Shown here: piece after piece, positions 23,008 to 31,010 of the stretch
How positions within the stretch are numbered: position 1 is the stretch's first letter
How the letters are laid out: each line of letters begins with the position of its first letter
Assembly: GCA_029242745.1 (NCBI GenBank)
Contig: JAQWTI010000042.1
Span: 1-42,275 of the forward strand
DNA length: 42,275 nt
Source: Acidimicrobiales bacterium
GTDB lineage: Bacteria > Actinomycetota > Acidimicrobiia > Acidimicrobiales > MedAcidi-G1
Reading direction: 5' to 3'
Notes under the pieces: model-generated
Seen by the model: only the letters and a program-made list of their open reading frames with translations
What the model was told of the DNA's origin: nothing
Databases searched by the model: none
Position numbers and translations under genes: made by a program

Positions 23008-23391
23008 TCAACTCTCAGTAATGAACTGATAAAGGCGCTCCTTGGGGCGTCCAACGGCCGCGACTAACGGACCCGCAACTTCTAGATCACCCCTAATCAG
23101 GATGGGTCGCTGCAATAAGGCCTTACGGCGGGCCAACAATTCGACAACTGCGTCAATATCACCCACGTAGTTCTCTTCAACAAGTTCCAACTTCTTGAAC
23201 TGTGAGTCTTTTCGGACCAAATCGCCAACGGGGTCGATCAACCCGTTGGCGATACGTCTCAGAAGCGCCTCATCTGGTGGCTCCTTCATGTAGAGAACAA
23301 CATCGATGTCGACCCCCAACTCCTCGGCGACCGCCAAGGCATTTTTAGAAGCATGTCAATGGGGATTATGTAAGACAGTCAAGTTCGCCAT
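23008..23391 (-). CDS. ArsC/Spx-family reductase with in-frame TGA at the catalytic cysteine (predicted selenoprotein)
   Basis: From ATG 23391, with AGGAG five bases upstream, the frame reads MANLTVLHNPH-TGA-HASKNALAVAEEL and continues to TGA 23008-23010: 127 residues including the recoded one. TGA at 23356-23358 is residue 12, exactly the place of catalytic C12 in E. coli plasmid ArsC (HNP-x-C). The anion-binding arginines are conserved: R60 in DLVRKD, R95 in LLQRP, R115 in VGRPKE. Downstream of the TGA is a 7-bp hairpin with loop GGUC. Without recoding, only a truncated 109-residue frame from TTG 23337 lacking the active site would remain. Predicted role: selenol-based thiol/oxyanion reductase; arsenate as substrate is not established, as no ars genes are nearby. 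It lies between a 101-residue unknown gene and the rraA remnant. Confidence 0.85.
23322..23339 (-). promoter_or_regulatory. Candidate bacterial SECIS hairpin of the first ArsC-like gene
   Basis: On the minus strand, CCTTGGC (23339-23333) pairs with GCCGAGG (23328-23322), seven pairs including one G-U, closing the tetraloop GGUC (23332-23329). The stem begins 16 bases and the loop 23 bases after the in-frame TGA, within the spacing used by bacterial SelB-dependent SECIS elements. The GGUC apical sequence is the same as in the E. coli fdhF SECIS loop. The hairpin lies wholly within the coding sequence. Confidence 0.75.
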
Positions 23392-28486: not shown

Positions 28487-28960
28487 TTAGCGGGTAACGC
28501 CGACTACTGCGCCAGAAGTGGCCTTCACTAGATCCTTGGGTTTAACAGGAAACACTGAATCCGGTGTGCCAGCTGCTGCCCACACTTCCTCAAAGTCCAT
28601 TAAATGGGGATCAACCACAGTACGTAATGGCACGGTATGGCCCAACGGCGGGGTACCACCGATAGCAAAGCCGGTGGCTGCCCGGACCTCACTGGCCCCA
28701 GCAATCCGAATCTCAGTTCCCAGGTAGGTCGCCAAGCGCTCCTCGTCGACCCGACGACCACCAGAACAGAGCACCAGCACCGGGCGGACGTCAGCAACGA
28801 ATACAAGCGACTTGACTATCTGGTCCACGTGGCAACCCACGGCCTTTGCCGCATCAGCCGCTGTACGAGTCCCATCTGGATACCGCTGAACCTCAATTGT
28901 CAACCCCGAGGCCTCAGCCTCGACTGTGAAGCGCTCAATGGCGTCGCTGCGACGGCTCAT
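28487..28960 (-). CDS. YbaK/ProX-type aminoacyl-tRNA deacylase (prolyl-tRNA editing family)
   Basis: Freestanding editing-domain protein of 157 residues that removes wrong amino acids (for example Cys or Ala from tRNA-Pro). Recognisable are the conserved lysine in DQIVKSLVF, the GFAIGGTPPLGH loop that forms the aminoacyl pocket, and the C-terminal VWAAAGTPDSVFPV motif. ATG 28960 was chosen over TTG 28969 in the same frame. It is convergent with asnC (12-base gap) and divergent from the second ArsC-like gene. Exact tRNA specificity cannot be told from the sequence. Confidence 0.9.
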   Translation of the reverse strand: MSRRSDAIERFTVEAEASGLTIEVQRYPDGTRTAADAAKAVGCHVDQIVKSLVFVADVRPVLVLCSGGRRVDEERLATYLGTEIRIAGASEVRAATGFAIGGTPPLGHTVPLRTVVDPHLMDFEEVWAAAGTPDSVFPVKPKDLVKATSGAVVGVTR

Positions 28961-29004
28961 GCTCTTCAAACTCCCAGGGGAACGGGGCAGCCTTTAAATC
29001 AGAC

Positions 29005-29091: not shown

Positions 29092-29463
29092 ATGCCTTCT
29101 ATAGATCCACGCCGGCTACTACTAGTGCACAACCCCGGCTGAGGAAAATCTCGAGGCGCTTTCGAATTACTCGAGGAGCGCGGCGTCGAGTTCGACGTCA
29201 TCAAATACCTAGATGAGCCACTGGATCGCACCATGCTGATTCGGATTCTGGATCTGGTGAATCTGTCCCCGAGCGAAATGGTTCGCCGTGACGCCAACTT
29301 CGCCGAACTGGGCGTGGACCCTGACAGCCTAGATGACCCAACTGCAGTGGTGGACCTTCTATTGGCTTACCCCATCTTGATGCAGCGGCCTATTGGGGTT
29401 CTCGGCGAGAATGCCATCGTGGCCCGACCGGCTGAACGCATCCTTGACCTTCTGAACGTCTGA
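29092..29463 (+). CDS. Second ArsC-family reductase with in-frame TGA at the catalytic cysteine (predicted selenoprotein)
   Basis: From ATG 29092, the only start codon after the upstream stop, the frame reads MPSIDPRRLLLVHNPG-TGA-GKSRGAFELLEERG and runs to TGA 29461-29463: 123 residues. TGA 29140-29142 is residue 17. E. coli plasmid ArsC has C12, R60, R94 and R107; here the recoded residue is 17 and the arginines are R65 (MVRRDANF), R99 (LMQRPIG) and R112 (ARPAER), all at +5, so the alignment has no gaps. Without recoding, only an open frame from an internal ATG at 29233 is left. The acyl-CoA ligase gene starts 17 bases downstream. Predicted role: cytoplasmic selenol-dependent reductase; the physiological substrate is unknown. 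Confidence 0.85.
29156..29181 (+). promoter_or_regulatory. Candidate SECIS hairpin of the second ArsC-like gene
   Basis: GCGCT (29156-29160) pairs with AGCGC (29177-29181) and, after a small internal loop, TCGA (29162-29165) pairs with TCGA (29171-29174), leaving the loop AUUAC. The loop starts 23 bases after the TGA, the same distance as in the other ArsC-like gene. An alternative fold pairs CTCGAG 29150-29155 with CTCGAG 29170-29175 around a 14-base loop starting with G. Neither has a GGUC loop, so support is weaker than for the first gene. Confidence 0.45.
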
Positions 29464-29480: not shown

Positions 29481-31010
29481 ATGAAATCCACGCCTCCTGA
29501 ACCGCTAATGACCCGCACATTAACTAGAGCTGCCCAGAGGTATGGCGACCGCGTGGCCTTCCGCCTCGTGTCAGGTGCCGAGTTGTCCTACCAAAACTTG
29601 GACCAAACATCCGACGAGGTGGCCGCCGGATTAGCCACCCGAGGTGTGGGCCCTCGCAGCGTCGTCCTACTCTCCCTGCCATCTGGCTTGGCCTACGTCG
29701 TGGCATACGCAGCAGCTGCCAAACTCGGCGCAACTACGGCAGGAGTCAACCCTCGAATGAGAGCCCGAGAGCGGGAGTTCATCGTCGACACCGTGGACCC
29801 CGATCTCATCTTGGCCACTGAACCACTCTCTGACGGAATACCAACCGACCGTCGAGTTGAACTGGTGAAAGTTGACGAAAACCAAACCAAGGAGTCCAAA
29901 TACATCCTGCGCGAGCTTAGACGCAAGGGAGACGACGTCCCCGCATTGCCAGTTGACCCTGACCGTCCAACCTGTATCTGTTTCACCTCCGGCTCAACCG
30001 GAAACCCTCGAGGCGCTTGGTTTTCTGACCGGCAGCTAGAAGCCGTTCAGGGGCTGGACATAGGCGGAATCTGGGGCTCCGGTGGACACCTGGTGAGTGG
30101 CACAGCGTTTGCCCATGTCGGGGTAATGACAAAACTGTGTTGGCAGTTAGCTTCGGGCACAACAATTCACGTCATGGACTATTGGTCAGCTTCCGAACTG
30201 CTCAATCTCGTCGAGCAGTACAAACTACCCACCGTTAACGGTGTTGCCGCCCAGATTGCCCTACTCATGAAGGAACCAAACTTCGATAATCGGGACCTGT
30301 CCTCCGTTAAAGCCATCGTGGCCGGAGCCGGTCCCTCTCCCCCAGCATTGGTCGCCGAGGCGCGGGAACGGTTCGGTGCTCCATACGTAATCCGGTACTC
30401 CTCAACTGAATCCGGCGGCGTGGGCCTAGGAACGGCGCTGGATGCCGACGATGCTGAGGCACTTTACACAGTGGGGCGCCCACGCCCTGGGGTGGCAGCC
30501 GAACTCCGCTCTGCAGATGGACACCCAGTTCCCCGCGGTGAAGTTGGCGAACTCTGGCTCCAAACACCGAGTGCCATGTCTGGCTACTGGAACGACCCCG
30601 AGGGCACTGCCGAGGCTCTAATAGGTGGCTGGCTCCGGACCGGCGACCTAGCCAGCATTGACGAGGCTGGCTGCTTTCGCCTCGCTGGGCGGACCAAAGA
30701 GATGTTCATCCGGGGCGGCTACAACGTTTATCCAATTGAAGTCGAAGCAGTTCTGGGAACAAACCCAGCGGTATCCCAAGTGGCAGTAGTGCCACGACCC
30801 GACCCGACCATGGGAGAAGTGGGCGTGGCCGTAGTTGTACCCACCGACCCAGACCATCCTCCCACATTGGAGGACCTAGTGGCCGATAGTCGAGAGCGGC
30901 TTTCGAACTACAAACTGCCCGAAGCTATACGAATCGTGGATCAACTTCCCCTGAACAGCGGCGACAAGTTAGACCGACTGACCTTGGCTTCATACGAAGC
31001 CCAATTCTGA
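29481..31010 (+). CDS. AMP-forming acyl-CoA synthetase/ligase
   Basis: ANL-superfamily enzyme of 509 residues activating a carboxylic acid with ATP to acyl-AMP and then acyl-CoA. The P-loop motif is FTSGSTGNPRGA (about 167-178), with Arg in place of the usual Lys. A5-like YSSTESGGVG, the A8 hinge region RTGDLASIDEAG...GRTKEMFIRGGYNVYP, and the catalytic lysine in NSGDKLDRL near the C-terminus are all present. The acid specificity is unknown; medium or long chain fatty acids or aromatic acids are possible. ATG 29481 lies 17 bases after the ArsC-like gene, so the two are likely co-transcribed. It is convergent with rsgA, 8 bases away. Confidence 0.92.
   Translation: MKSTPPEPLMTRTLTRAAQRYGDRVAFRLVSGAELSYQNLDQTSDEVAAGLATRGVGPRSVVLLSLPSGLAYVVAYAAAAKLGATTAGVNPRMRAREREFIVDTVDPDLILATEPLSDGIPTDRRVELVKVDENQTKESKYILRELRRKGDDVPALPVDPDRPTCICFTSGSTGNPRGAWFSDRQLEAVQGLDIGGIWGSGGHLVSGTAFAHVGVMTKLCWQLASGTTIHVMDYWSASELLNLVEQYKLPTVNGVAAQIALLMKEPNFDNRDLSSVKAIVAGAGPSPPALVAEARERFGAPYVIRYSSTESGGVGLGTALDADDAEALYTVGRPRPGVAAELRSADGHPVPRGEVGELWLQTPSAMSGYWNDPEGTAEALIGGWLRTGDLASIDEAGCFRLAGRTKEMFIRGGYNVYPIEVEAVLGTNPAVSQVAVVPRPDPTMGEVGVAVVVPTDPDHPPTLEDLVADSRERLSNYKLPEAIRIVDQLPLNSGDKLDRLTLASYEAQF

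Follow-up and report, generated by a model that had tools for sequence, protein, structure and literature searches.

A selenocysteine-containing ArsC-family gene of an Acidimicrobiales bacterium and a candidate tandem-hairpin signal downstream of its UGA codon

An open reading frame (ORF) of an Acidimicrobiales bacterium carries TGA at the position where enzymes of the ArsC family have their catalytic cysteine, which raises the question of whether this codon is read as selenocysteine (Sec), what kind of enzyme would result, and which RNA signal could direct the decoding. The ORF lies in a stretch of 42,275 nucleotides (the window, meaning the whole stretch analyzed) that makes up contig 15 of an assembly of 2.4 Mb with a listed completeness of 94.7%. 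The features of the locus are collected in Table 1.

Table 1. Features of the two-copy ArsC locus, in coordinates of the window
Feature	Coordinates	Strand	Evidence
First Sec-ArsC copy, of clade B, with its TGA at 23358-23356 and, 23 nt after the UGA, the GGUC loop of a canonical SECIS	23008..23391	-	
Aminoacyl-tRNA editing domain protein, divergent upstream neighbor, not an arsenic gene	28487..28969	-	
ArsC-family ORF, 123 aa with Sec17, terminal TGA	29092..29463	+	PF03960, TIGR00014, phmmer against PDB, fold
In-frame TGA at catalytic Cys position (Sec17, HNPG-U-GKSR)	29140..29142	+	Same codon TGA in 64/126 readable curated homologues, Cys in 62
Hairpin 1, proposed spacer; starts 13 nt after UGA, abuts hairpin 2	29156..29181	+	Segment 16-42 constrained; loop sequence drifts
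Hairpin 2, proposed SelB-binding SECIS, GGCGUCG-AGUU-CGACGUC	29182..29199	+	61/61 sequences keep TCGAGTTCGA and can form six inner pairs; null 22.9/61
AGUU apical loop with GU exposed between a pairable A and U, 46 nt from the UGA	29189..29192	+	61/61, positions 43-60 folded alone
Arg65 codon, counterpart of R60 of R773 ArsC	29284..29286	+	Alignment; invariant 15/15
Arg99 codon, counterpart of R94 of R773 ArsC	29386..29388	+	Alignment; invariant 15/15
Arg112 codon, counterpart of R107 of R773 ArsC	29425..29427	+	Alignment; invariant 15/15
AMP-binding enzyme, 17 nt 3' of the ArsC ORF, not an arsenic gene	29481..31010	+	

An in-frame TGA in an ArsC-family gene

Our comparative data indicated that the ORF is almost certainly a functional gene for a selenoprotein of the glutaredoxin type of ArsC. 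Its predicted protein (MPSIDPRRLLLVHNPGUGKSRGAFELL...RPAERILDLLNV) contains one internal TGA, at residue 17, and then runs to a terminal TGA, in agreement with the initial annotation, which had described the rest of the frame as clean to its stop. PF03960 (Pfam ArsC) matched the protein at 30.8 bits, above its cut-off of 24. With Cys substituted for Sec, TIGR00014 scored 90.5 bits (E = 9.7e-26), below its curated equivalog cut-off of 106.05; since that cut-off is the NCBI naming threshold, this match does not by itself justify calling the protein an arsenate reductase. TIGR00014 was the best NCBIfam model for the protein nonetheless, far ahead of the Spx models, which stayed below their own cut-offs (TIGR01617, 34.4 of 75.05 bits; NF002459, 26.2 of 123 bits), and it matched 15 of 15 members tested from clade A, the group to which this ORF belongs, at E values up to 1e-3. 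A phmmer comparison with the PDB aligned U17, R65, R99, and R112 with C12, R60, R94, and R107 of E. coli ArsC (1jzw; residue numbers counted by hand on the printed alignment), which confirms both that HNPG-TGA-GKSR fits the ArsC motif with TGA in place of the nucleophile and that the offset to R773 ArsC is five residues, as annotated initially; the further claim of a strictly gapless alignment did not hold, as HMMER, in the alignment to 1jzw, inserts a single pair of compensating gaps in the stretch from R65 to R99. The HNPxU motif and the three arsenate-binding arginines were invariant, x excepted, in 15 of 15 aligned clade-A members. An AlphaFold2 model of the protein (mean pLDDT, 89.8) placed ArsC structures at the top of a fold comparison with the PDB and Spx structures lower in rank. 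With the E. coli ArsC structures 1jzw, 1i9d, and 1s3c, the window protein has in common the fold, the HNPxC/U loop, and the counterparts of Arg60/94/107, whereas it differs in having Sec for Cys12, a shorter C-terminus, and no ars context that we could find.

The same codon recurs as TGA in relatives. A search of the order gave ArsC matches in 124 of 198 genomes (133 match rows), of which 128 were curated. At the catalytic codon, 64 of these have TGA and 62 have Cys, and two (L086, L147) are unreadable. Five short partial matches (G165, G114, G109, G126, G024) stand outside the curated set, and three of them (G109, G126, G024) contain TAA or TAG. If the last three residues are disregarded, the match contains no second stop in any of the 64 TGA and 62 Cys sequences; random stops in relatives, which the initial annotation had named as evidence that would speak against it, were accordingly absent from the TGA set. 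A GTDB scan found 160 relatives, and among the best 80 there were 71 with TGA (one of them, L229, was missed by the pattern and read by eye) and nine with Cys, assigned by their record titles to Acidimicrobiia and their relatives, Gammaproteobacteria, Binatia, Myxococcales, and others. SelA was found in 57 of the 58 genomes of the order with a TGA sequence vs. 32 of the 59 with Cys only (Fisher p = 5.6e-9), and the one TGA genome in which it was not found, G170, has a listed completeness of 83%. The genome of the window itself has a tRNA-Sec with anticodon UCA, SelA, a SelB (the only one found in the genome) adjoining SelA on contig 46, and a SelD with an in-frame TGA of its own. Searched with PF03960, it yielded the two copies in the window only, each matched only downstream of its own TGA. 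Substitution rates on the two sides of the codon, a comparison proposed in the initial annotation, pointed to purifying selection on both: dN/dS was 0.12-0.34 3' of the TGA in eight pairs, with dS above 1 in some, and pN was 0.04 against a pS of 0.50 in the eight codons 5' of it, pooled over six pairs. Judging from the machinery and the conservation, the UGA at 29140 would be decoded as selenocysteine through SelB and tRNA-Sec. The recurrence of TGA, the Sec machinery, purifying selection, and the co-occurrence with SelA thus uphold the original reading of the gene as a second, distinct selenoprotein ArsC.

These data leave little room for two other explanations of the internal TGA. As TGA is one base from TGC or TGT, and since other stops do occur in three short partial matches of the order search, it could have arisen by nonsense mutation or through misreading of a Cys codon; we consider this very improbable and rejected it, because TGA stands at the same codon across independent assemblies, 64 TGA sequences have no further internal stop, and dN/dS (0.12-0.34) speaks for selection on the protein. 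A genome-wide reassignment of TGA to a sense codon is rated lower still. It would account for read-through of the in-frame TGA in both ArsC copies and SelD, but TGA terminates 11 of the 20 listed ORFs of the window and is thus an ordinary stop here, the genome has a dedicated tRNA-Sec, SelA, and SelB, and the TGA codons of the ArsC and SelD sequences examined coincide with Cys codons of their homologues.

Two ArsC copies and their possible substrate

The two copies in the window share 36% identity (55 bits). In a maximum-likelihood tree of 126 sequences, whose resolution is limited by few columns and which is unrooted, so that gain and loss of Sec are not distinguishable on it, the ORF at 29092-29463 falls in clade A (16 Sec and 4 Cys sequences; support 86/90, marked open) and the first copy in clade B (47 Sec and 1 Cys; support 96/89, starred), while one Sec sequence, L109, falls outside both. 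Seven changes of the Sec label are needed on this tree, at least two of them forced by starred branches. The position of the copies in two separate groups bears out the initial view that the second is not a recent duplicate of the first. Both copies were also present in four relatives of the same family (G054, G096, G128, G156), and in three of these four they share one contig, with the clade-B copy on the minus strand and the clade-A copy on the plus strand, about 2, 8, and 2 kb apart, compared with 5.7 kb here. The two ArsC copies are neighbors of long standing. A single ArsC match, of clade B, was found in G181. Other genomes of the order with two sequences combine Sec and Cys (G134), two Sec (G139), or two Cys (G188, G101).

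The catalysis that we propose is based on the mechanism of R773 ArsC. By analogy, Sec17 would attack arsenate as the nucleophile while the substrate is held by Arg65, Arg99, and Arg112, and a redoxin or low-molecular-weight thiol would then resolve the adduct, a scheme that we regard as somewhat more probable than its alternatives taken together. The conserved arginine triad, a feature of the alignment, argues for arsenate or a similar oxyanion as the substrate. The surroundings of the gene do not point the same way. Besides the editing-domain protein and the AMP-binding enzyme next to the ORF, the window neighbors include an Lrp/AsnC regulator and RsgA; no arsenic gene was present among the ten window neighbors scanned, nor among ten neighbors of five other loci, three of which matched no family. 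A search of the genome (listed as 94.7% complete) for two exporter families, Acr3 and ArsB, gave no match. An ars operon, considered as one reading of the locus, therefore found no support from the neighbors or from the Acr3 and ArsB searches. An arsenite efflux partner is usual for genomes with ArsC, without being strictly defining. The missing Acr3 and ArsB and the lack of a neighboring arsenic gene weaken an arsenate role; the enzyme may detoxify arsenate together with an exporter of another family, or it may act on another substrate.

The latter leads to the possibility that the selenoprotein is not an arsenate reductase but a thiol-selenol oxidoreductase of the Spx/YffB or glutaredoxin type with other substrates. 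We hold this to be possible, at roughly one chance in three, given that Acr3 and ArsB were not found in the genome, that the two sets of ten scanned neighbors (three of those at the other loci familyless) held no arsenic gene, that the TIGR00014 score is below its cut-off, and that Spx structures match the fold as well. It is countered by the invariance of HNPxU (x excepted) and of the three arsenate-binding arginines in 15 of 15 sequences, by TIGR00014 being the best NCBIfam model with Spx models far weaker, and by the motif, which is UxxS here and not the CxxC of Spx. As a separate observation, ORFs of 501-518 aa lie directly downstream of ArsC in L153, L155, and L178 too, so ArsC and the AMP-binding enzyme may form an operon.

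Two hairpins downstream of the UGA

The most unusual part of the locus, absent from the initial annotation, is a tandem-hairpin element that follows the UGA in clade A. RNA positions are counted here from the U of UGA. The clade-A Sec set comprises 61 non-redundant sequences out of 85 (the order search contributing 15 and the best 80 of 160 in the GTDB scan 46), which are related to one another and were thinned only at 95% identity; it consists of the window gene and 60 further homologues from Acidimicrobiia, Gammaproteobacteria, Binatia, Myxococcales, and others. In all 61, the bases TCGAGTTCGA at positions 47-56 are invariant and the six pairs from 44-59 to 49-54 are always possible. When positions 4-66 were folded whole, the six inner pairs of hairpin 2 formed in 55 of the 61, the exceptions being L165, L171, L173, L180, L192, and L199. 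Compensating changes accompany this conservation: pair 46-57 is G-C in 38, G-U in 18, and A-U in 5 sequences and is never mispaired, while pair 45-58 is C-G in 59, U-G in 1, and G-C in 1, the last being a Proteobacteria sequence in which the amino acids changed too. Where Ile (ATC) replaces the Val of codon 15, Asp is GAT in 5 of 5 and the pair is kept; with GTC, it is GAC in 38 and GAT in 18 (giving G-U).

Codon choice within hairpin 2 is more uniform than the protein sequence would call for. Val at codon 15 is GTC in 56/56 cases vs. 139/402 elsewhere in the gene, Glu is GAG in 61/61 vs. 231/336, and Phe is TTC in 61/61 vs. 75/91. Under a synonymous null with local codon usage, the six pairs were expected in 22.9 of 61 sequences, compared with the 61 observed, and with pooled codon usage at most 54% of the sequences had them in 2000 draws. 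The mean synonymous z of segment 43-60 was -1.96 in clade A (n = 61), -0.20 in clade B (n = 48), -0.42 in the Cys sequences of the order (n = 62), and -1.00 in the nine Cys relatives among the best 80 of the GTDB scan. These nulls and segment controls superseded a first profile of synonymous identity, which pooled amino acids and served as a lead only. A pairing suggested by an early RNAalifold run on 15 clade-A sequences, between the UGA region and columns 21-25 alongside 44-59, was gone with 61 sequences, leaving 44-59 alone.

Some observations limit the specificity of hairpin 2. Columns 43-60 can form six or seven of the seven pairs in 19 of 49 other Sec sequences and six of seven in 11 of 71 Cys sequences; the peptide VEFDV in itself favors a palindrome, and this peptide, irrespective of its codons, was part of the seed for the GTDB scan. 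Among the nine Cys relatives just mentioned, one (L157) retains the pairing together with AGUU as its loop, and in six others six pairs are combined with an ACUU loop; as these six keep the stem and the z value of the nine is -1.00, the stem alone is not Sec-specific. The loop G is present in 61 of 61 Sec sequences. L157, a Cys-ArsC of Myxococcales with the motif SKCR, is possibly a reversion from Sec to Cys.

Hairpin 1 is conserved in another manner. Segment 16-42 had a mean synonymous z of -2.05 in clade A (n = 61) and -1.85 in clade B (n = 48), vs. -0.65 in the Cys sequences of the order (n = 62) and -0.23 in the nine Cys relatives. Positions 17-42 tend to pair and end where hairpin 2 begins; at least four pairs within 10-42 were present in 59 of the 61 one-piece folds, in varying registers. 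Folded alone, hairpin 1 has its loop starting 19-25 nt after the UGA in 61/61, with G in the first two places in 21/61 and G followed by G or U in 2/61. Taken together, the controls for segments 16-42 and 43-60 indicate one constrained hairpin in clade B and two in clade A, where both hairpins are conserved. A first test of folding energy over positions 4-51, a span that cuts through hairpin 2, did not single out clade A (mean z, -0.42 in 16 clade-A sequences and -0.06 in Cys sequences), although the 64 Sec sequences as a whole (mean z, -1.11) did differ from those with Cys.

The first copy has a signal of the canonical kind. In these tests, clade B stands for the 48 Sec sequences outside clade A, L109 included. 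The GGUC loop of the first copy, at 23 nt, is the form seen in 32 of the 48, with CGUGC or CGUGA at 17 nt in 8, and other loops in the remaining 8; in the stem, columns 24-33 are paired in 42/48 and include paired changes (G-C in 31, A-U in 7). RNAalifold gave no consensus for the 48, probably because two registers are mixed. The GGUC loop of clade B and the AGUU loop of clade A both hold GU between bases able to pair. One Sec sequence near clade A but outside the 61, L031 of G139, has no hairpin 2, and its loop, GGUC, is at 17 nt; it may represent a state before the tandem element or a separate gain of Sec.

A folded spacer as a possible decoding layout

SelB carrying Sec-tRNA reads a GU loop in E. 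coli, in line with the printed consensus. In the layout that we propose, hairpin 2 with its invariant AGUU loop would be the element bound by SelB. Hairpin 1 would fold away 26 nt, so that a GU loop lying 46 nt from the UGA in sequence would come to an effective distance of about 20 nt (46 minus 26), which would resemble the canonical element of the first copy (23 nt). The start of hairpin 1, 13 nt after the UGA, is near the 11 nt that PMC8659212 quotes for the element of E. coli, and for this reason hairpin 1 could stay folded outside a ribosome paused at the UGA, carrying hairpin 2. We consider it fairly likely that the roles divide in this way, with hairpin 2 binding SelB and hairpin 1 acting as a spacer. 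The general form of the proposal is a bacterial SECIS made of two hairpins, of which the first, free in sequence and located just outside the ribosome entry channel, serves as a spacer that brings a distant GU-loop hairpin to SelB; we give it an even chance.

Alternatively, Sec could be inserted with hairpin 1 as the SelB-binding SECIS, hairpin 2 being a helper or a by-product of VEFDV. Hairpin 1 lies at the canonical distance in a constrained segment (16-42; z = -2.05 in 61 sequences), its loop starts 19-25 nt after the UGA in 61/61 when folded alone, and 15 of 16 clade-A sequences can form some hairpin that conforms to the rules. The rule scan, though, is unspecific: our implementation of the bacterial SECIS (bSECIS) rules of PMC13188914 passed 15/16 clade-A, 48/48 other Sec, and 62/62 Cys sequences and hence did not discriminate. 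The hairpin-1 loop has G followed by G or U in 2/61 and G in the first two places in 21/61, set against AGUU in 61/61 for hairpin 2, and this lack of a conserved G makes the reading weaker; in SelD, moreover, the invariant GU also lies in the second hairpin. Hairpin 1 as the recognized element is thus rather unlikely in our judgement, at about one chance in four, and the layout with hairpin 2 bound by SelB is preferred.

Sec-containing ArsC proteins have been in print since 2005, and the window protein is a further member of a known family. The source papers report 14 sequences from the Sargasso Sea in 2005 (PMC1088965) and 77 sequences with UxxS from the GOS survey in 2008 (PMC2398784), and Sec-ArsC with UxxS is listed in two reviews (PMC9312934, PMC13188914), the latter of which, dated 2026, describes the functions of arsenate reductase and similar selenoproteins as largely uncharacterized. 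The published proteins (ArsC 1, pfam03960/COG1393) are like ours in family, in Sec replacing the catalytic Cys, in UxxS, and in coming from environmental bacteria, and they were reported with bacterial SECIS-like hairpins; a difference here is that two separate Sec-ArsC clades are found within one window. PMC13188914 gives the bSECIS rules as a loop of 3-9 nt with G in the first two places, a stem of 4-16 bp, 16-37 nt between UGA and loop, and a minimum free energy of at most -7.5. Measured by them, hairpin 2 resembles a bSECIS in its 4-nt loop with G second and then U, its pairable N1/N2, and its stem of up to 7 bp (AGUU and at least six pairs in 61/61 sequences), but differs in the position of the loop, 46 nt after the UGA in 61/61, and in the constrained hairpin in between.

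The same review states that some elements break the bSECIS model (PMC13188914), and another paper reports that at least 40 known genes in test genomes escaped a rule-based program (PMC12013277). In the open-licence literature, the SECIS figures of 2005 and 2008 excepted, we found no description of a tandem or 46-nt bacterial SECIS, and the distant tandem-hairpin decoding signal looks new. If the proposal is correct, the recognized loop can sit 46 nt from the UGA in a Sec-ArsC clade that spans several phyla, with a milder form of the layout in SelD; spacing would then be a matter of folded and not of sequence distance, the range of 16-37 nt would be too narrow, and rule-based searches may miss selenoproteins built in this way. 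The window also offers a clean comparative case for the reach of a bacterial SECIS from its UGA, with two related genes in one genome in which one SelB was found and with elements at 23 vs. 46 nt.

A parallel is seen in SelD of the order. Among 30 loci inspected (including L050 and L230-L250), 17 had readable Sec sequences, and G37-U38 was invariant in 17/17. The consensus fold has a hairpin at 14-26 and then a hairpin at 29-47 with G37-U38 in its loop, which would give an effective distance of 20 nt (33 minus 13). In the SelD of the window genome itself, the first hairpin is drawn longer (11-29), and the distance would then be about 14 nt. A bacterial SECIS of Sec-SelD is mentioned in PMC4561486, with reference to a supplementary figure, and the tandem layout of SelD may already be in print. 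Like clade-A ArsC, the Sec-SelD of the order combines tandem hairpins with a second loop in which GU is invariant; unlike it, the loop lies at 33 nt, inside the published range, and the first hairpin is shorter.
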